Shown here one piece after another: positions 13,052 to 22,585 of a DNA stretch of 47,474 bases. Positions within the stretch are counted from its first letter, which is position 1. The number at the start of each line of letters is the position of its first letter. Source of the stretch: Methanothrix sp. Lineage in GTDB: Archaea; Halobacteriota; Methanosarcinia; Methanotrichales; Methanotrichaceae. The DNA lies in NCBI GenBank assembly GCA_025361645.1, contig JANYKI010000010.1:1-47474 (forward strand), read 5' to 3'. The notes below the pieces were generated by a model. It ran no database searches. It saw only the letters and a list, made by a program, of their open reading frames with translations, and was not told the DNA's origin. Both the position numbers and the translations under genes were made by a program.

Positions 13052-13684
13052 ATGTTACTTCTGGGCGCAGACGAAGCTGGAAAAGGCCCCGTCATCGGCT
13101 CCATGTTCGTGGCCGGCCTGGTAATCGAGGAGGATAGGCTCTTCGACCTGGCGGGCTTTGGGGTCAAGGACTCCAAGCTTCTCGCGCCGGCGAAAAGAGA
13201 GATACTGGCCAGAAAGATCAACGGGATTGCCACCGACCAATATATCCTGGAGGTAAAGGCCCAGGTCATCGATGAGCTTCGACTTGTTATGACCATGAAC
13301 GATATCATGGTGAGGAGCTTCTCAACGGTTGTGGCAAAGCTGCATGCCGACCGGGCTATTCTCGATGCCGCCGATGTAAATGCAGAAAGGTTCAGAGATC
13401 GAGTGAAGGCCGCGAGCAAAACCACCATGGACCTTGTGGCCGAGCACAAAGCCGACCAGCGTCACCACGTCGTCTCGGCTGCCTCCATCCTGGCCAAAGT
13501 GCGGCGGGATGCATCCATGCGGGAGCTGGAAGAAGCCATGCACTGCAAGATTGGCAGCGGCTATCCCCACGATCAGGATACCTTAAATTTTTTGAACGAA
13601 TGGGTGAAGGAAAACCGGTGTCTTCCACCCTGCGCCAGGCATAGCTGGGCAACGGCGCAGCGCATAAAAGCTAGTTTTATATAG
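13052..13684 (+). CDS. rnhB: Ribonuclease HII
   Basis: 210-residue enzyme that cuts the RNA strand of RNA-DNA hybrids and at single ribonucleotides. Catalytic residues are visible as Asp7-Glu8 in GADEAGKGPVIG, Asp105 in AILDAADV and the acidic EHKADQRHHVVSAASILAKVRRD block at 131-153. The start is ATG 13052 (MLLLGADEAG), the usual distance from the DEAGKG motif. The C-terminal region ends shortly after ARHSWATAQRI, as in the archaeal type. The aminotransferase follows 38 bases later in the same direction. Confidence 0.95.
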   Translation: MLLLGADEAGKGPVIGSMFVAGLVIEEDRLFDLAGFGVKDSKLLAPAKREILARKINGIATDQYILEVKAQVIDELRLVMTMNDIMVRSFSTVVAKLHADRAILDAADVNAERFRDRVKAASKTTMDLVAEHKADQRHHVVSAASILAKVRRDASMRELEEAMHCKIGSGYPHDQDTLNFLNEWVKENRCLPPCARHSWATAQRIKASFI

Positions 13685-13722
13685 GCTGCCTGAAACTAAA
13701 GGCGCAAAGAAGAAGGGATCTC

Positions 13723-14868
13723 ATGGATATAGAGGATACTTTGCTCATGATTCCAGGGCCGGTCAAGGTCGCGCCTCGCGTTCTACGCGCCCTGTCCAAG
13801 CCTATGATCAGCCACCGGAGCGGTGACTTTAGCGTGATTTACAGCGACTGCTGCAAACTTCTCAAGCAGTTCTTCGAGACCAAGAACGAGATAGTAGTAA
13901 TGACCGGTAGCGGCACGGTGGGCATGGACGCCGCGGTTGCCGGCCTCATCGGCCATGACGACAAGATCGTAACCATATCCAATGGCAAGTTCGGAGAGCG
14001 GTTCACCGAGATTGGCGAGCGCTATGGCAAAGCCATTCCCGTGAAGTTCGAATGGGGCACTCCCTTCGACCTGGACAGGGTAGAGGCCGCGCTGGAAGGG
14101 GGCGCCAAGGCCGTGGCTATGGTTCACAATGAGACCTCGGTGGGCCTCACCAACCCTGCCAAAGAGGTAGGCAAGCTGGCCAGGAAGCATGATGCAGTCT
14201 TTATCGTAGACGGCATATCCTCCATCGGCGGCAACGAGTTCTTTACCGACGAGTGGGGCATAGACATTGCCATCACCGGTTCGCAAAAGGCTCTGGCCGT
14301 GCCACCGGGACTGGCCGTGGTCTCCACTTCCCCCAGGGCGGAGGAGCGTTTCCTGCCCAAGAGCGCCAGCTACTACTCCGACCTGAAGGCGCACCTGAAG
14401 AGCGTGCGAAAGAGCCAGCCTCAGACGCCGTTTACCCCGGCTGTGTCGCTGTTCTTCGCCATGCAGGAGTCCCTGCACATGGCCGCCGAGGAGGGCTTTG
14501 CCCTCCGCCGGGCCAGAACTGCCAAACAGGCGCAGTCGGTTCGCTCCGCGGCTAAGGCGCTGGGCATCGAGCTGTTCCCCCAGGTGAATGAGCACACCCA
14601 CTACTCCAATACCGTCACCGCCATGAAGATGCCCGAGGGCGTCACGGACGACAAGCTACGTGGCGGCATGAAAAAACAGGGCGTAATAGTATCCGGCGGA
14701 CAGGATCTCATCAAGGGCAAGATCTTTCGCATCGGCACCATGGGCATGTGCTCTTCCAGCGACATCCTGCGAACCATCCAGACTTTGGAGCTGATCCTGG
14801 TCAAGGAAGGGAAGATCGCCTCATGCGGCGCGGGAGTCGAGGCAGCGAGCACTGTGCTGGAAAGTTGA
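13723..14868 (+). CDS. PLP-dependent aminotransferase (serine-pyruvate/alanine-glyoxylate family)
   Basis: 381-residue class V aminotransferase. MIPGPVKVAPRVL near the N terminus, HRSGDFSVIY, TGSGTVGMDAA, Asp163 (FIVDGISSIGG) for the pyridine nitrogen and Lys189 (TGSQKAL) for the Schiff base are all present. The archaeal members include broad-specificity aspartate/alanine-glyoxylate and phosphoserine-type enzymes used for amino-acid synthesis in methanogens, so the exact substrate cannot be set. ATG 13723 follows AAGGGATC. The C terminus adds a short tail after the domain. It may be co-transcribed with rnhB. Confidence 0.9.
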   Translation: MDIEDTLLMIPGPVKVAPRVLRALSKPMISHRSGDFSVIYSDCCKLLKQFFETKNEIVVMTGSGTVGMDAAVAGLIGHDDKIVTISNGKFGERFTEIGERYGKAIPVKFEWGTPFDLDRVEAALEGGAKAVAMVHNETSVGLTNPAKEVGKLARKHDAVFIVDGISSIGGNEFFTDEWGIDIAITGSQKALAVPPGLAVVSTSPRAEERFLPKSASYYSDLKAHLKSVRKSQPQTPFTPAVSLFFAMQESLHMAAEEGFALRRARTAKQAQSVRSAAKALGIELFPQVNEHTHYSNTVTAMKMPEGVTDDKLRGGMKKQGVIVSGGQDLIKGKIFRIGTMGMCSSSDILRTIQTLELILVKEGKIASCGAGVEAASTVLES

Positions 14869-14954: not shown

Positions 14955-14972
14955 AAAAGACTTTATAAGTAG
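14955..14972 (+). promoter_or_regulatory. Promoter of the tubulin-like operon
   Basis: AAAAAGACTTTATAAGTA matches an archaeal BRE plus TATA box (TATA core 14961-14969). It predicts a transcript start near 14990 and a leader of about 50 bases to ATG 15042. A GCATGCATGC-like palindrome (14976-14983 and around) lies just downstream. Confidence 0.6.
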
Positions 14973-15041
14973 GTATGCATGCAGTAGAATATATTCTTGG
15001 TTTCATGGGGGTCGAAGCTGTTGAGTGGACTAAAGGCAGAA

Positions 15042-18000
15042 ATGCGCACTGAATTATCAAATCGGGGCTTATCACTATGCAAGAAAGTAGGAAGAGAGCA
15101 ACTTAATCTCACACTATTGCTAGTATTAGTAAGCATAATTTCTGCTTTATCCCTTGTCGCACCATGTGCGGCCCAGAGCGGCTATGAAATCAGAGGCGCC
15201 GTGGTAACTCCGGAATATGGCTATGAGGATTTCACCTACTCTGCCCAGGTATGGATGAGCGAAGAGGCGGACCGCGAAAAGGGCGTCATTGCCGTCACCA
15301 AATTCAGCTTGAAACTGAATATCTACGACAAAGGCGAATTGATCCACACCGAATCCTCCGACCAAAGGGGATTGAGCAAAACCACTTTCCTCTTCGGGCC
15401 CTACAGCTTCAAGGATAGATTCGGCATAACCAGCACCAGCAATGCCACCTTTGAATATATTTTTTATGCGGGCAGTCAGCTGGTCGCAAAAACCGCCAGA
15501 ATAAAAGGCCCCATCGTCCAGCCACCCACATTAACCGGCACCCCCAGCTTCGAGAAGAAGCCTTATTTTTTCCAGGGGATCGCAGTCTCAGCGGGATTCA
15601 AGGACATGGACGGGCTAAACCCCAAGCCGACATGCCATCTGGAGATTACAGGCCCGCTGGGCACCCCTGATTCCAGGAGCTGGATCACAGCCGACGTTTC
15701 TTGCCAGCCCTCAGGAAAGAGCACATATTCCTGCACAGTGGCTGAAGATCTATCCAGCTACAGAAATGGCGGAGATTTCACTTTCAAGCTGGTCTACAAC
15801 AACCTCAAGCTTGACCCTCTGAACTACGGTCCATACAACGTCAGCCTTCAGCCCTATAATCCTGCCCTGGAAAAAGTCACCATTCCTAAGCTATTAGATT
15901 ATACCAACTTCACCATTCAGGCTTACGTTAAGGACGCCGGGGCCAGGATGGTGGGCGGCACCCCGGACGGTAGCGTGGCCAGCCTGATAATCAGCCACCC
16001 CCAGAAAGGCGAGATCTCTTACAGCTCATCTGAGCCCGCTGTGCGGGGCAACAGCCTGGTCTACGAGTGGACCAATGATAATATCCCGGCCCTCTTCAAC
16101 CGCAGCGATGTGCAGCTCGCCAAGAATGCGCCCTTCCAGGCCAAAGTGGTGTACAAGAACGAAAACTGGAATTACCAAGCTGAAAAGTCCAACATCAGCT
16201 TCAAGATAGTGGAAGAGATTCCCAAATTGGACCTGCAATATCCCTCAACCGTTTATGTGCGGGGCGGCGAGAGCACCACTCAGGATATAATTGCCACAGT
16301 TACCTTCTCCAAGGGTGCAGGAGATATGAATTTCATGCTGTCGGGCCCGGATCAGGATCTGAACTTGACGGAGAAGGGAGTGCCTCTGGGAGGTAATCGG
16401 TATCAGTACAAGTGGCAGGTTAAGTTCGACGACCGCCATATCAATAACAACTACACCCTGGGATTATCCTTTGTCCACCCTACGCTCGAAGGCGGCAGTT
16501 ATGCCTTCGAGGACAAATTCATTAGAGTCTCACCGCTTTCCGTGCAGTTTTCCGAAGGACTTGTGTCCCCAACTACGGGTCTATGGAACGAAAGCTACAC
16601 ATATTCCCTGAAGATCGAAACCACCATCGTACCTCTAGAAGTCCGTATCCAGACCTACGACCCATGCAGCAGCGAATGGACGGATAAAGGAGCCCAGAAA
16701 GCGACAGCGGAATCGTCATTGTTAAATTGGACCCTCTCACCTTTTGGCTATGAATGTAAAGAGATGCAGCAGGAAGGAGCTAAGTATCGTTTCAAGGCCA
16801 GCTTTGCCGGAAATGATTACTCCTCAAAGCCCTACCAGGGCCCGACCTTCGAAGGAGCAAGACCCGTCCTCGTCTCTCTGGATAGCGATCCAGTGGTCTA
16901 TGTCTCAGAGGGCAGCGAATCTTCCAGCAGCATTCAGGCTGTAGTGGAATATGGAGCCGGCCAGGGCCAGGCCGTCCTCAGGCTGGATGGCCAGGAAAAG
17001 AGCATCGATGAGACAAGCCAGGGAATAGCTCTGGGCGGCAATCGGTATCGGTACGATTGGAGCCTGCCCTTCGAAGAGACAGATATAGGCAAGAGTTTCA
17101 ATTATACTATCAGCTACAAGCACTCCAGTCTTGCAGCGGAAATGCGACTGGCAGAAAAGTCGATTGATGTTAAAGCAATATCAATCAACTTTGGCGATGC
17201 GACCGTGTCGCCTGTAAAAGGCAAATGGAATGAGACCTATGCCTACTCGGTGGCTGTAAGCAGCAGCGTCGAAATGAAGGTGGCACTGGAGGTCTATAAC
17301 CCATGCAGTAAGGAGTGGGTGGAGCGAACTTCCGGCACGGCAACGAGCGGCGAGAGCCTTGTCAATCTCACTGCCAGGCCCTTCAAGTATAAATGCGTCG
17401 ACGCGGAAGGAAAACAGGCTAGCTATCGTTTTGTTGCCCGATTTGCCGGAGCGAGATTCGAATCCGAGGGATATTCGGGACCGTTTATCAGCGGAGGCAA
17501 ACCGGAACTGGTATCACTGGACTATACTCCGATAATTTATGTGACTGAGGAGGTCCCCATTTATCAGGTGGTAAAGGCAATCATAGACAGTCCCCTGGGG
17601 CCGGGCGCTGTGGCCTTGAGCATCAACGGCCCAAAGATGGACTTCACAGAGGTGGGCATAGTGACCTTCCTGAGTGGACAGAGGTACGCTTACACCTGGT
17701 CAATTCCCGTTAGCGTCGATAACGCCGGAAACCATACCTTATCGCTGCGCTACCTGCATCCTGAAATCACAGGCGGCGAGATCTCTTTCCCAGAGCAGAA
17801 CATGAGGGTAATGAAAGCAGAAGTTAAAAAGAAAGAAGAAATAATTAAATTTGATCAGGCATCTGTTACACCTGCCAACGGCTCGATCTTCACCGGATTC
17901 ACTTATTGTGTGAATGTGACATCCAATCTGAAAAATTATGACTTGGAGCTTTTCACGCAGGAGCCCGGCTCAACCAAATGGATCTCTCAGGGTACTATTC

Positions 18001-18710
18001 CCTACAACGGCACATCTCAAGTCCTCTGCTGGCCGGAGGTTGTGATCGATGGATCGCATTACGGAACGGCAAAGTACAGATTTAGCAGTGGATTGTCGGC
18101 CTCAGAGATCTTCGAAGGCCCGAGCATTGAGCCGGTGAGCTTCATGAACGCCACAATAAGCCCGACCCACGGGCCTCTTTACATAACAAACCCGCTCCTG
18201 GGCGAGATATCCAAGGTATACATGTACACCATCAGCGTGCAGTTCATGAAGCTCCTGGCAGGCAACATGAAAGAGGTCAAGCTGGAGGTCTACGATCCGT
18301 CCTCTGAATCATGGCTTTATGCCGGCAGCCAGACTTATGATGCTTCCAAAACCAAGATTGTATTCAAGGTCAATTTCGCAGGTCTGCCATTCCAGGAGCC
18401 CTTCTTAGGGGAGACTAGGTACAGACTGCTGGCTTATAGCGAGAATCTGGGCGAATTTGTTGGGCCGACCATTGATGTGAACCTGAGAAATGAGCAAGCA
18501 ATCGCACAGGGCAAGAATTACACCTATCAGCTTGAGGTGAGGTCAAGTCTACCCAAGGTCGATGTTGCTCTGGCTTATACCAAGAATAATGTCAATTGGC
18601 TGAAAGGAGACAAGAGGACCTACGAATCCACGAACCAGGAATGGAAAGCCCTGAAGTGGGAGAAGTATCCCAAGCACTATGCTTACGAGTTTGAGGTGGC
18701 TTATGCTTAA
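15042..18710 (+). CDS. Large secreted protein with three Ig-like tandem repeats (operon gene 1)
   Basis: 1,222 residues. The N terminus is a signal peptide: charged region, hydrophobic LTLLLVLVSIISALSLVAP, probable cleavage after CAAQ. The body is beta-rich and Asn-glycosylation-rich (many NxS/T). Three repeats begin near residues 396 (LDLQYPSTVYVRGGE), 608 (LVSLDSDPVVYVSEG) and 821 (LVSLDYTPIIYVTEE), a period of about 212. Each holds a LGGNRYxYxW-like block and a VSPxxGxWNExYxYS block; the first two also share a Cys pair (DPC/NPC ... YEC/YKC). No C-terminal membrane anchor is visible. I chose ATG 15042; the frame reaches TTG 14997, but that would place the start almost at the transcript start. 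The last codons overlap the next gene by eight bases. Function unknown; a surface or sheath-facing structural role is inferred. Confidence 0.8.
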   Translation: MRTELSNRGLSLCKKVGREQLNLTLLLVLVSIISALSLVAPCAAQSGYEIRGAVVTPEYGYEDFTYSAQVWMSEEADREKGVIAVTKFSLKLNIYDKGELIHTESSDQRGLSKTTFLFGPYSFKDRFGITSTSNATFEYIFYAGSQLVAKTARIKGPIVQPPTLTGTPSFEKKPYFFQGIAVSAGFKDMDGLNPKPTCHLEITGPLGTPDSRSWITADVSCQPSGKSTYSCTVAEDLSSYRNGGDFTFKLVYNNLKLDPLNYGPYNVSLQPYNPALEKVTIPKLLDYTNFTIQAYVKDAGARMVGGTPDGSVASLIISHPQKGEISYSSSEPAVRGNSLVYEWTNDNIPALFNRSDVQLAKNAPFQAKVVYKNENWNYQAEKSNISFKIVEEIPKLDLQYPSTVYVRGGESTTQDIIATVTFSKGAGDMNFMLSGPDQDLNLTEKGVPLGGNRYQYKWQVKFDDRHINNNYTLGLSFVHPTLEGGSYAFEDKFIRVSPLSVQFSEGLVSPTTGLWNESYTYSLKIETTIVPLEVRIQTYDPCSSEWTDKGAQKATAESSLLNWTLSPFGYECKEMQQEGAKYRFKASFAGNDYSSKPYQGPTFEGARPVLVSLDSDPVVYVSEGSESSSSIQAVVEYGAGQGQAVLRLDGQEKSIDETSQGIALGGNRYRYDWSLPFEETDIGKSFNYTISYKHSSLAAEMRLAEKSIDVKAISINFGDATVSPVKGKWNETYAYSVAVSSSVEMKVALEVYNPCSKEWVERTSGTATSGESLVNLTARPFKYKCVDAEGKQASYRFVARFAGARFESEGYSGPFISGGKPELVSLDYTPIIYVTEEVPIYQVVKAIIDSPLGPGAVALSINGPKMDFTEVGIVTFLSGQRYAYTWSIPVSVDNAGNHTLSLRYLHPEITGGEISFPEQNMRVMKAEVKKKEEIIKFDQASVTPANGSIFTGFTYCVNVTSNLKNYDLELFTQEPGSTKWISQGTIPYNGTSQVLCWPEVVIDGSHYGTAKYRFSSGLSASEIFEGPSIEPVSFMNATISPTHGPLYITNPLLGEISKVYMYTISVQFMKLLAGNMKEVKLEVYDPSSESWLYAGSQTYDASKTKIVFKVNFAGLPFQEPFLGETRYRLLAYSENLGEFVGPTIDVNLRNEQAIAQGKNYTYQLEVRSSLPKVDVALAYTKNNVNWLKGDKRTYESTNQEWKALKWEKYPKHYAYEFEVAYA

Positions 18711-20262
18711 GTGGCTGATTGCTGCAATACTAGCTTTGTTTCTGATTTCCGGATCGACCCTGGGCGGAGAGGTTCTAGGCGGAGGCGATTCTAGCGGCGG
18801 AGGCGACAGCGGGCCTTCCGTCTCAACGGGTGGCGGTGGAGGAGGCGGCAGCAAGCAGATCGATATCGACCGATTGATTAAGACCGTGCAGGACGGAAAG
18901 AAGAGCAAGCCTGCCAAGTTCGAGGAGCTCCGGACCTTATTGTGGAAGGATCCGATCACAAGCGAAGAATACAAATGGCCTACTGTACTCATGTACTACA
19001 AAGGAAACAATACCACAGTCAGCCGGAATCAGCCGCTGGAGATCATAACGGTTGCTACCAATAACAATCCTCTGGAGATGCGCCGTATGCTTGACCTTTA
19101 TCTAGAGGTAAAAGAGCCGGGTTCGAGTAAGTACGAGCGCATCAACTCCTGGCCGGAAAAGATTCAGACCAATGAGTATAGCGAAACAACCAACACCACC
19201 TTGAGAATCTGGGGCATGCTGCCCTCATTTTCCTACCTCAAGAATGTGGGGGTGGTAAAGGTGCGCGCCAATGTGAGCGACGGAGTCAATAAATGGAGCA
19301 CGGCAAGCTACTCCGGGCTAAAACCACCCTATTATACGGAACTGGTCTTCAATGTAACCTACAGCCTGCCGGCCATGAGCGACTTCAATGTTACTCCATC
19401 GGGCCTTGTAAGGTATAATGATCCCATAGAGTACAAGGCTAATATCGCCGATGCAGATGGAGATTTGCTCAATGTAACACTGCACATTCTGGATGAGAAC
19501 GGCGTTGAGCTGAAGAATGAAACACTGAACATGAAACCAGGCCCTGTCAGCTTCAAGGCCAATGAATATGGATTCTTTAAAGAGGCTGACGCAGGCAGGA
19601 ACTTTACTTACTATTACAGCTATGATGATGGCATTGATTTTATCAGCAAAGATCCCGTGGATGCATTGAACGGACCTAATATCCGGAAAGGTCCAAAGCT
19701 CTCCGTGGATAAGCTGGGCCTTTCCTCTACCAGCGAGAATTATTACTGGTGGGAGAAGTATGGATTCAATCTGAGAGTAAAGAATCTGAACCCTGAAGAA
19801 TACGAAGTATCCTTTACTCTGAGCACCAGAACCGGTCGCAATGAATGGACTACAGTGGAGACGAAGACGGTCAGAATAGGACCTGATCCCGTAGAGGTGA
19901 ACTTCAATGACACCAAGCCCTTCCAGGTTACCGATGCCGGGCAGAATTTTTACTACAGAGTCAAGTACTCGGAATATGATCAGAGCGGCAAGGACGCCAT
20001 GGAGCAGACGGGTGTTCATATCAACGGCAAGATCGTGCCCTACAGTATCTATAATCCGGTAATGGTCCTGAATTTGGTGCCAATGCTCTTCCTGATATTA
20101 TTGGGAAGCTTTTTCGTGGAAAGAAAGCTCAAAAAAGGAAATGAGGCTCATGAAAGCGCATCAGGCAAAACCAGGGACAGGAAGAACAATAAGCAAGAAC
20201 GCCGGGGCAAATCCGGCGGAAGCTTTGCCGACAAAGTTCTCAAAATGTTGAGGAGGGGCTAG
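18703..20262 (+). CDS. Membrane-anchored surface protein with Gly-rich linker (operon gene 2)
   Basis: 519 residues. Signal peptide LKWLIAAILALFLISGSTLGG is followed by a Gly/Ser-rich linker (about 20-50, with a run of seven Gly) and an extracellular beta-rich region with Ig/cadherin-like phrases (IEYKANIADADGDLLNVTL near 245). A single C-terminal transmembrane segment (about 449-472, MVLNLVPMLFLILLGSFF) leads into a ~50-residue Lys/Arg-rich cytoplasmic tail. ATG 18703 is chosen because GAGGTGG (18692-18698) precedes it; ATG 18679 lies inside the previous gene without such a site. This is the one protein of the operon that could physically connect the outside with the cytoplasmic tubulin-like partner. 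No known family recognised. Confidence 0.8.
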   Translation: MLKWLIAAILALFLISGSTLGGEVLGGGDSSGGGDSGPSVSTGGGGGGGSKQIDIDRLIKTVQDGKKSKPAKFEELRTLLWKDPITSEEYKWPTVLMYYKGNNTTVSRNQPLEIITVATNNNPLEMRRMLDLYLEVKEPGSSKYERINSWPEKIQTNEYSETTNTTLRIWGMLPSFSYLKNVGVVKVRANVSDGVNKWSTASYSGLKPPYYTELVFNVTYSLPAMSDFNVTPSGLVRYNDPIEYKANIADADGDLLNVTLHILDENGVELKNETLNMKPGPVSFKANEYGFFKEADAGRNFTYYYSYDDGIDFISKDPVDALNGPNIRKGPKLSVDKLGLSSTSENYYWWEKYGFNLRVKNLNPEEYEVSFTLSTRTGRNEWTTVETKTVRIGPDPVEVNFNDTKPFQVTDAGQNFYYRVKYSEYDQSGKDAMEQTGVHINGKIVPYSIYNPVMVLNLVPMLFLILLGSFFVERKLKKGNEAHESASGKTRDRKNNKQERRGKSGGSFADKVLKMLRRG

Positions 20263-20264
20263 GA

Positions 20265-20909
20265 ATGGCAATTGATATCCCAACTGTAATGAATAGCCTA
20301 TTTCCTGCAGGCACGTTGCTGCTGGCATTATTGCTGATCTTTGCAGCAATTTTGCACATTAATAACCTAAATCGGGTCCACAAGCTTATGGCCGTACTGC
20401 AGCATAAGAAAGAGGTCTCCAAGGCAATTTTTTATAAAGAGATGACTGTCCCGCAAGGCTCAAACTTCACAGCCCTGGCCCTGGCCGCGTGGATTATGCT
20501 CACGGTAGCCGTTGCTTACCTTTACCTGCTGGTTCCAACCGTCCTTCCCTTCAGCTACATGGATATAGCCGAACTGGCCTCGAGTACTTTGGGATTTGCC
20601 ATTTTTGGAATTCTTGTGGCCTGTCTTGTGGGGGCAATAATTCTCTTTCTCGACAAGCTTCCAGAAGATCACAGAGATTTACGGCCAATGGAATTGTATA
20701 GCTTTTATTCCATCTCCAAAACCATGAAGAAGATGATCAGCATGACGGTTATTGCCTTATGCATCTCCGTACTGCTATCGGCCTACATCGGCACAATTTT
20801 TCCGGCTCATTCGCAGCCTGCCGAGCTTTTGAGCCTGATGCTTTTGGTTGTATCGGCTGGCGTACTTGTCATGCCGATTTATAGAGAGGCCTGGGAGGCG
20901 AGAAGATGA
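20265..20909 (+). CDS. Small multi-pass membrane protein (operon gene 3)
   Basis: 214 residues with about five hydrophobic segments (roughly 12-32, 67-90, 102-126, 158-178, 184-202). Between the second half of the segments lies a charged cytoplasmic-looking loop (DKLPEDHRDLRPMELYSFY). GAGGAGGGG and the stop of gene 2 lie directly before ATG 20265, leaving a two-base gap, and its own stop overlaps the next start (ATGA). I do not recognise the family. Tight coupling on both sides argues that it works in one complex with genes 2 and 4. Confidence 0.75.
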   Translation: MAIDIPTVMNSLFPAGTLLLALLLIFAAILHINNLNRVHKLMAVLQHKKEVSKAIFYKEMTVPQGSNFTALALAAWIMLTVAVAYLYLLVPTVLPFSYMDIAELASSTLGFAIFGILVACLVGAIILFLDKLPEDHRDLRPMELYSFYSISKTMKKMISMTVIALCISVLLSAYIGTIFPAHSQPAELLSLMLLVVSAGVLVMPIYREAWEARR

Positions 20910-22585
20910 GATTATGCATTGTAGGAATTGGTGGAGCTGGGGGCAAAATCGCCCAGGAGTTTCTGGGAAACGAGGATCTGGATTTCCAGCTTCTTTCCCG
21001 TATAACTGATGCGCAATATATCTCTCCCGGCATGATACAGGGCATTTGGCTTGAAGCCGATAAGAACGATGCTAAGAACATCCAGCATTTCTTCGGAGAT
21101 CTGAATGAGGGGTGCTATCCCTGCTTTTATATTCCACATGATGTTGTAACCGATGGCTGCGAGGTTCATAGAATAGTCCGGGAAAAATACGGCTACGACG
21201 TAAAGAAGCAGGGCTTTGTAAGAGACGCCCAATATCTCAAGGCCATATTTGAAATTTTTGATACGGATAAAGAGATCCAGGCAATCGTTGCCAAAACCAT
21301 GAATAAAGAGATGATCGAATCGCTGGGAGGAAACGGGGCCAATAGCAGTGCATCATTCAGCCAGGCTCCCAATCCCATATTCGACAGTGCCTGGAATGCC
21401 ATAAGAGACTTCACAACTCTGGGAAAAGGAGAGTGCGATGGCATCCTCTTTGTGGTCTCCTTTGGCGGAGGAACAGGGACAGGATTTATTAATCCTATTA
21501 TTAACCATATCAGAAATGAAGGCAAGGCGGATTACCCTGTTTTTGCACTGGGCATATTGACCGAACCTGGTGACTATGCAGACAAGGCTCAGTTTTCAAA
21601 GAGCGCAAGAAGGAACCTGGCGGCGATAAGCGCCATTTACGATCTTCTCACCAAGGGTGGCGGGGCCAATGGGGTCATCATCGTCGATAATGAGATTCTA
21701 TTGGAAAGATATGGAAATGATTACGTTGCAGCCAACAAATTCATTCATAAGATGATGCAGCCCCTTGTGGCGGCACGTGACTATCCCGGAGAGATACCCC
21801 CCAGCCAGGCTGTAGCTCAGCACTCATCCGGCGGCCTCTCCCGGCCACCTATATTTGTGCCCCTCTTTGCCACTCTACCGAGGTGCGTCGATCCTGAGGA
21901 GGCCCTTATCAAGAAAGCGCTGAGCGAAGAGGGAAAGCTCTTTGGCTGCTCTCCGGAAAAGGCGGACTTTGCCATGGTCTTCTGCCGCGGTTTCATCGAT
22001 TCGGAGAAGATAAGAATGATTCTCTCCAGGGAGACGGGCATCGCGCCGGAAAGCGTATGGCCGTCCAGGAAGATGGGTGAGGGAAATAATGAGATATTGA
22101 TTCTGCTAAGAAATCCCTATGGAGGCGATACCAAGGCCTACCTGAAGGTGGGCACGCTGGAAAATAGATTTTGCATGGTGATCTCTCAGGCTTTGCAGTA
22201 CATGAGCCAGCAGCCGGAAGATCTGTTTTATGAAGGCAAACAAGAAGAAAAGAGCAAAAAAGATGGCAAGTCGACCGAGCAGGTCAAGCTGACTGAGGCT
22301 TCCAAGGAGGCTCTTAAGATGTTCTTCTTTGGGCCGGAGGGAATGGGCAAAGACGGTTTTGGCAAGACGAGCGGTTTTGCCTTTGAGCTGAAGGAAGCTA
22401 GAAGAAGGCTGAGGAATGGAAAGGTGCCTTTCTTCCTCCATCCTTTGAGAATATTTAATAAGGATGATAAACACGTGGGAGACAATAAAAATAAGGCCCC
22501 CGAACCGGATAAAGATGAGATCGCCAGGGCTGTTGACAAGAGGATAGACGAGCTGATAAAAAGGGGACAAATAAGGGGTGTGTGA
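20906..22585 (+). CDS. Divergent tubulin/FtsZ-superfamily GTPase (operon gene 4)
   Basis: 559 residues. It begins MRLCIVGIGGAGGKIAQEF, an FtsZ/tubulin T1-type glycine loop right at the N terminus. It carries the superfamily signature SFGGGTGTGF at about 186-194 (T4 loop), followed by a FALGILTEPGD segment (like FtsZ T5) and VDNEILLERYGNDYVAANKFIHKM (260-283), which corresponds to the nucleotide-base-contacting T6/H7 helix. The gap between T1 and T4 is about 75 residues longer than in FtsZ. I cannot find a convincing NxDxxD T7 catalytic loop. The C terminus (about 445-559) is charged and Lys-rich. It fits the Tubulin_2/FtsZ-like group rather than FtsZ1, FtsZ2 or CetZ. Translationally coupled to the membrane protein (ATGA overlap). 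Polymerisation at the membrane is inferred. Confidence 0.82.
   Translation: MRLCIVGIGGAGGKIAQEFLGNEDLDFQLLSRITDAQYISPGMIQGIWLEADKNDAKNIQHFFGDLNEGCYPCFYIPHDVVTDGCEVHRIVREKYGYDVKKQGFVRDAQYLKAIFEIFDTDKEIQAIVAKTMNKEMIESLGGNGANSSASFSQAPNPIFDSAWNAIRDFTTLGKGECDGILFVVSFGGGTGTGFINPIINHIRNEGKADYPVFALGILTEPGDYADKAQFSKSARRNLAAISAIYDLLTKGGGANGVIIVDNEILLERYGNDYVAANKFIHKMMQPLVAARDYPGEIPPSQAVAQHSSGGLSRPPIFVPLFATLPRCVDPEEALIKKALSEEGKLFGCSPEKADFAMVFCRGFIDSEKIRMILSRETGIAPESVWPSRKMGEGNNEILILLRNPYGGDTKAYLKVGTLENRFCMVISQALQYMSQQPEDLFYEGKQEEKSKKDGKSTEQVKLTEASKEALKMFFFGPEGMGKDGFGKTSGFAFELKEARRRLRNGKVPFFLHPLRIFNKDDKHVGDNKNKAPEPDKDEIARAVDKRIDELIKRGQIRGV

Follow-up and report, generated by a model that had tools for sequence, protein, structure and literature searches.

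A tubulin-like protein encoded with surface and membrane proteins in Methanotrichaceae: a candidate membrane-spanning module

Can an archaeal tubulin-like protein be coupled through the membrane to proteins on the cell surface? The question is raised by a four-gene unit on a Methanothrix sp. contig (JANYKI010000010.1, assembly GCA_025361645.1), of which we analyzed positions 1 to 47,474 (the window; all features below lie on its forward strand). Genes 1 to 4 are co-directed, overlap or abut one another between about 15021 and 22585, and are predicted to encode a secreted repeat protein, a single-span surface protein, a five-span membrane protein, and a tubulin-like protein. The initial annotation, made from the sequence alone, proposed that a cytoplasmic tubulin-like polymer is linked through the membrane to a surface layer or sheath. 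Our analysis moderately favors a unit in which a tubulin-like scaffold would bind nucleotide and dock on a membrane and surface complex.

Gene 4 and the tubulin superfamily

Gene 4 (20906 to 22585) encodes a protein of 559 amino acids. The Pfam Tubulin profile (PF00091) matches its residues 3 to 267 with an E value of 1.5e-7 and 32.3 bits, just below the cutoff of 33; in the genome scan, gene 4 with its neighbors reached 35 bits, above the cutoff, and all 39 aligned relatives match the profile (best E value, 2.1e-10). A profile of the family, searched against PDB, retrieved tubulins, FtsZ, and an archaeal "tubulin-like protein"; most of these matches span profile positions of about 155 to 357. 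An AlphaFold2 model based on the alignment of the 39 relatives (predicted local distance difference test score [pLDDT], 76; predicted template modeling score [pTM], 0.80) contains both tubulin domains with helix H7 between them and a tubulin-like order of strands and helices. The best PDB matches to this model in Foldseek are tubulins, at a probability of 1.00 over nearly the whole chain, with template modeling scores (TM-scores) of 0.52 to 0.61 by target length and a root mean square deviation of about 7 Å, so that domain placement is uncertain. Judged from its sequence and modeled fold, gene 4 is a genuine, very divergent member of the tubulin superfamily, as the initial annotation had supposed.

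The T1 and T4 motifs reported initially (GIGGAGGKI and GGGTGTG) are present at residues 7 to 15 and 187 to 193. Within the T1 loop GIGGAGG (20924 to 20944), five positions are invariant and the last glycine is kept in 37 of 39 sequences, while the T4 signature (21464 to 21484) is invariant in all 39. The Asp-Asn pair of T6, in the guanine-recognition region (21686 to 21691), is similarly conserved (Asp in 39/39, Asn in 38/39), and residue 277 in helix H7 is Asn or Asp throughout. Conservation of these four elements suggests that gene 4 likely binds guanine nucleotide.

The T7 motif NxDxx[DE] completes the GTPase site of the neighboring subunit and drives GTP hydrolysis. The T7 region of gene 4 (21776 to 21817; R-x-Y-P-G-E-x-P-P-S...) does not contain it: tubulin RFPG-x-x-NxDxxE aligns with R-x-YPGE-x-PPS-x-A, replacing N, D, and E, and an Asp near the middle position is kept in one gene 4 clade. 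With these three residues missing, GTP hydrolysis at a subunit interface appears doubtful. The last acidic residue of T7 is missing from beta-tubulin too, and the change therefore lowers claims about activity rather than about superfamily membership. Toward the C terminus, the 39-sequence alignment reveals a conserved peptide, G-E-K-P-F-F-x-x-P-L-R-I-F (22418 to 22456), in which G505 and F510 are invariant and I516 and F517 are kept in 37 and 38 of 39 sequences, respectively; it is a candidate partner-binding tail. Gene 4 is interrupted by a stop codon at L094:8721-10478 and split into two frames at L099:5501-7977, both in metagenome-assembled genomes (MAGs), representing either pseudogenes or sequencing errors.

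To place gene 4 among its relatives, we built a tree that also included FtsZ1, FtsZ2, CetZ, and Tubulin_2 from Methanosarcinia. Gene 4 forms its own long-branched clade, excluded both from FtsZ1 plus FtsZ2 and from CetZ (ultrafast bootstrap [UFBoot] support of 100 for each); it joins Tubulin_2 at UFBoot 91, on very long branches that could produce the grouping. An identity as FtsZ was rejected from this topology and from the FtsZ equivalog profile TIGR00065 (19.7 bits against a cutoff of 295), as was CetZ from the split that excludes gene 4. Tubulin_2 was rejected as well, since PF13809 scores 15.1 bits against a cutoff of 27; weak matches to it occur in 9 of 39 members (best E value, 4e-4). 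In hhalign comparisons, the gene 4 family is closest to CetZ (97.9%), with an E value of 4.5e-13 over 177 columns only and 25% identity, followed by Tubulin_2 (97.3%), FtsZ2 (95.2%), and FtsZ1 (69%).

Gene 4 shares DN(Q/E) in T6 with CetZ but differs from it in length (559 versus about 370 amino acids), in its C-terminal extension, in the loss of the T7 acidic residues, in its separate clade, and in having three partner genes rather than one. FtsZ1 and FtsZ2 have the superfamily, T1, and T4 in common with gene 4 and differ in T7. Like gene 4, FtsZl1/Tubulin_2, described by Makarova and Koonin in 2010 (PMC2875224), is a divergent tubulin homolog whose operon also encodes membrane and secreted proteins and which exists beside a normal FtsZ. 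Unlike in that system, the gene 4 model has neither an extended coiled coil nor a helical C-terminal domain, and vWA, P-loop GTPase, and OmpA genes are absent from the unit; the initial annotation had made the latter point, and we found none of the three among the window genes scanned. Gene 4 represents a new family of a known superfamily and has a new gene context; we found no description of it in the literature searched. It is probably not a division protein, because FtsZ1, FtsZ2, and CetZ are encoded separately in the genome from which the window comes. No FtsZ2 was seen in two complete genomes with gene 4 (G237 and G228), and FtsZ2 is present in a complete genome without it (G004, described below); other genomes hold both, arguing against strict replacement.

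Conservation and co-evolution of the four genes

A pattern-based scan, which took one genome from each of 84,980 species and may miss distant members, identified 45 loci labeled almost exclusively Methanothrix, Methanosaeta, Methanocrinis, or Methanotrichaceae. In whole-genome searches, gene 4 was found in 45 of 50 Methanotrichaceae genomes, including 32 of the 33 that are near-complete, and the distribution of gene 2 is nearly the same. Other Methanosarcinia genomes gave only weak matches, in frames of FtsZ or CetZ length. A phylum sample added one genome, G269, a Methanocellaceae-labeled MAG; its locus (L104) carries all four genes outside Methanotrichaceae, through either transfer or a binning error. 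Throughout Methanotrichaceae the four genes are found together and in the same order, where the initial annotation had left their co-occurrence in relatives to be checked. Their identical order in dozens of genomes places the unit far beyond chance.

The near-complete exception, G004 (99% complete; chromosome of 3,008,626 bases), has no copy of the unit. At its empty site (L120), rnhB and a class-V aminotransferase gene, which usually precede the unit in the relatives compared, are still adjacent and are followed by a TrpB-like gene. Judged by its chromosome length, G004 is presumably Methanothrix soehngenii (concilii) GP6, which forms sheathed filaments.

The pairwise distance matrices of genes 2 to 4 correlate with one another at 0.93 to 0.94 (the pairs are dependent, and no P value is attached). 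After the distances of rnhB and the aminotransferase are regressed out, partial correlations of 0.79 to 0.88 remain; genes 2 to 4 co-evolve beyond the level of the flanking genes. Some genomes hold two diverged copies of the unit (L078/L088, L073/L092, and L082/L091), with gene 4 42 to 47% identical between copies, and the second copies keep the unit together. In M. natronophilus Mx, one copy has a single nearest relative (L077) for genes 2, 3, and 4 alike, and the three genes of the other copy all point to one common group of nearest relatives. Mere hitchhiking is an unlikely explanation of the gene order, given the correlation that remains among genes 2 to 4 once the flanking genes are removed and the joint travel of the second copies.

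The tight packing of the unit is kept in relatives. Genes 1 and 2 overlap by 8 bases (18703 to 18710), genes 2 and 3 are separated by 2 bases (20263 to 20264), and genes 3 and 4 share a 4-base ATGA (20906 to 20909). These junctions agree with the initial annotation, as does the TATA box CTTTATAAG (14961 to 14969) of the putative operon promoter, which is preceded by AAAAAG. The element AAAAAGxCTTTATAAG is kept in an alignment of upstream regions from close relatives. In the window, rnhB and the aminotransferase gene (13052 to 14868) flank the unit without belonging to it and serve as a conserved synteny marker. At one other locus, rnhB is immediately preceded by a vWA-domain gene (L245:2-688; PF13519 and PF00092), which is not part of the four-gene unit; no such gene was seen in the window.

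Predicted membrane and surface proteins

Gene 2 (18703 to 20262) is predicted to encode a protein with a signal-like N terminus, a beta-sandwich (immunoglobulin [Ig]-like) ectodomain, a single C-terminal transmembrane (TM) segment (20059 to 20115; hydropathy of 2.41; helix 452-486 in the model), and an ER-x-YR tail. The C-terminal anchor had been recognized in the initial annotation, together with a basic cytoplasmic tail that does not hold as a general feature: a long basic tail is found in only one clade, which includes the window copy, and we rejected it as a defining feature of gene 2. Most members end in ...ER(R/K)xYR directly after the TM segment, and the conserved intracellular part, as predicted from the alignment, is this short ER-x-YR only. 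Fold searches matched the sandwiches of complement and alpha-2-macroglobulin with a global TM-score of about 0.2, and we read these model-based matches only as strings of Ig-like domains. The gene 2 sequence had no match in PDB.

Gene 3 (20265 to 20909) has five hydrophobic segments, in agreement with the five-helix protein described initially. Lys and Arg are confined to the loops at residues 31 to 71 (six) and 130 to 156 (six) and to the C terminus (three), with none in the other loops, so the positive-inside rule predicts an N-out/C-in topology with two basic cytoplasmic loops. These loops carry the conserved motifs QGSNF and YSFYxISK. Searches of gene 3 against Pfam and PDB returned no match.

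Gene 1 (15021 to 18710) probably starts at TTG 15021, because this codon and the preceding GGGGG (15007 to 15011) are conserved in the upstream alignment of close relatives and ATG 15042, the start chosen initially, is not; the longest open reading frame (ORF) begins at 14997. The predicted product is a secreted Ig-like repeat protein, and its secreted, repetitive character had been noted before. A signal peptide core (15114 to 15170) has a hydropathy of 2.54 over 19 residues, and three tandem units of about 210 residues each (16251 to 18131) occupy ORF residues 419-634, 634-849, and 839-1045. Self-BLAST of the unsplit sequence found no repeats; splitting it into windows revealed the units, which are about 26 to 38% identical with pairwise E values down to 1e-48. 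Homologs in the same place in relatives range from 537 to 1460 amino acids, and gene 1 had no sequence match in PDB.

A wider pairing, the proposed mechanism, and its alternatives

In Methanosarcinia, CetZ is also encoded directly behind the gene for a single-span ectodomain protein. At the CetZ loci with a complete upstream ORF (from L196 to L243, L151, and L254 to L260), 45 of 45 directly upstream ORFs encode a secreted, C-terminally anchored protein of about 380 to 445 amino acids that starts with a signal-like sequence, has a single TM segment at its C-terminal end, and finishes in a short basic/aromatic tail (for example, RRYKEYKY, RHKQYKF, or RRSQFRM). In the presumed Methanosarcina acetivorans genome (see below), the tail of the anchored partner is RRHRQYRY. 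CARDB/DUF11 (Ig-like) domains were found in all four partners tested. Such an upstream gene was present for 14 of 249 close same-strand neighbors, a background drawn from the surveyed loci around the operon and not at random. Outside Methanosarcinia, one of two readable CetZ cases has an anchored upstream gene. Tubulin_2 follows the same pattern, as 22 of 25 readable cases (L160, L170 to L195, and L244) follow a gene for a secreted single-TM protein of about 240 to 295 amino acids, mostly with a 4-base (ATGA) overlap. At L244, a membrane protein gene lies after the Tubulin_2 gene. A published survey of CetZ synteny (PMC9856176) reported NAD genes near cetZ in Methanosarcinales and little else in common; of the four arCOGs that it lists as conserved, one is unnamed in the text and might be the anchored partner.

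We propose that genes 1 to 4 form one membrane-spanning module. Gene 4 would be a soluble protein with a tubulin fold, binding guanine nucleotide via T1, T4, and T6 and tethered to the cytoplasmic membrane through the basic loops of gene 3, the ER-x-YR tail of gene 2, or both. Gene 2 would cross the membrane once and use its Ig-like ectodomain to present the secreted, variable-length gene 1 protein. By assembling or changing conformation under the control of nucleotide, gene 4 could then gather the surface proteins into clusters, set their position, or signal to the cell interior that the surface is engaged. Because T7 does not have the usual activating residues, stable assemblies with slow or partner-dependent hydrolysis seem more likely than dynamic filaments of the FtsZ type. 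The unit may be one version of the wider arrangement in which CetZ and Tubulin_2 each directly follow a single-span ectodomain gene, an arrangement that supports the through-membrane link of the initial annotation as plausible.

Several observations weigh against this scheme. Conserved order and co-evolution are evidence of functional linkage and not of contact. The altered T7 sequence argues against a classical dynamic gene 4 filament. Gene 1, with partial correlations of 0.56 to 0.61 after removal of the flanking genes, is less tightly tied than genes 2 to 4. Finally, hhalign of gene 2 with the CetZ-partner ectodomain gives 60% (E value, 8e-5), leaving homology unclear; given so weak a match we do not claim it, and the parallel may be convergent.

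The same features could also describe signaling, with gene 4 as a non-polymerizing, G-protein-like nucleotide switch that reads a gene 1/gene 2 receptor through gene 3. Retention of T1, T4, and T6 with loss of the T7 catalytic residues would suit such a switch, as would a receptor-like single-span gene 2 and a small polytopic gene 3, but no downstream effector gene is conserved beside the unit and, to our knowledge, essentially all characterized tubulin-fold proteins assemble into polymers; we regard this reading as unlikely. It is also quite unlikely that genes 3 and 4 form a platform that exports, places, or anchors the surface proteins, since genes 1 and 2 have ordinary signal-like N termini and gene 2 has its own TM segment, so that dedicated export seems unnecessary, and no secretion ATPase was recognized among the adjacent window genes. 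The small polytopic gene 3 protein would fit a platform, and a scaffold role has been proposed for CetZ in the type IV pilus loci of Thermococcales and some haloarchaea (PMC9856176).

The sheath or filament-architecture function suggested initially is very improbable. If G004 is sheathed GP6, its empty site rejects the unit as a strict sheath requirement. The sheath proteins of these organisms are nonetheless large and secreted with Ig-like repeats, as in the unit, which is almost confined to Methanotrichaceae; all members of this family, and all Methanotrichales, encode sheath proteins (PMC11576556).

Beyond the docked tubulin-like scaffold that we favor for the unit, the broader pairing is perhaps the more important result. 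We raise only tentatively a general coupling of ectodomain and tubulin in Methanosarcinia, in which short basic/aromatic tails would tie single-span Ig-like proteins to tubulin-like assemblies. Such a coupling would resemble integrins on a cytoskeleton, with CetZ, Tubulin_2, and gene 4 as three versions and the four-gene unit as the most elaborate. The CetZ and Tubulin_2 pairs suggest a specific way in which tubulin-like proteins of archaea might be attached to the membrane and to the outside of the cell. Both pairs occur also in a genome of 5,751,492 bases, presumably that of Methanosarcina acetivorans C2A; if so, the working genetics of this species make the pairing directly testable.

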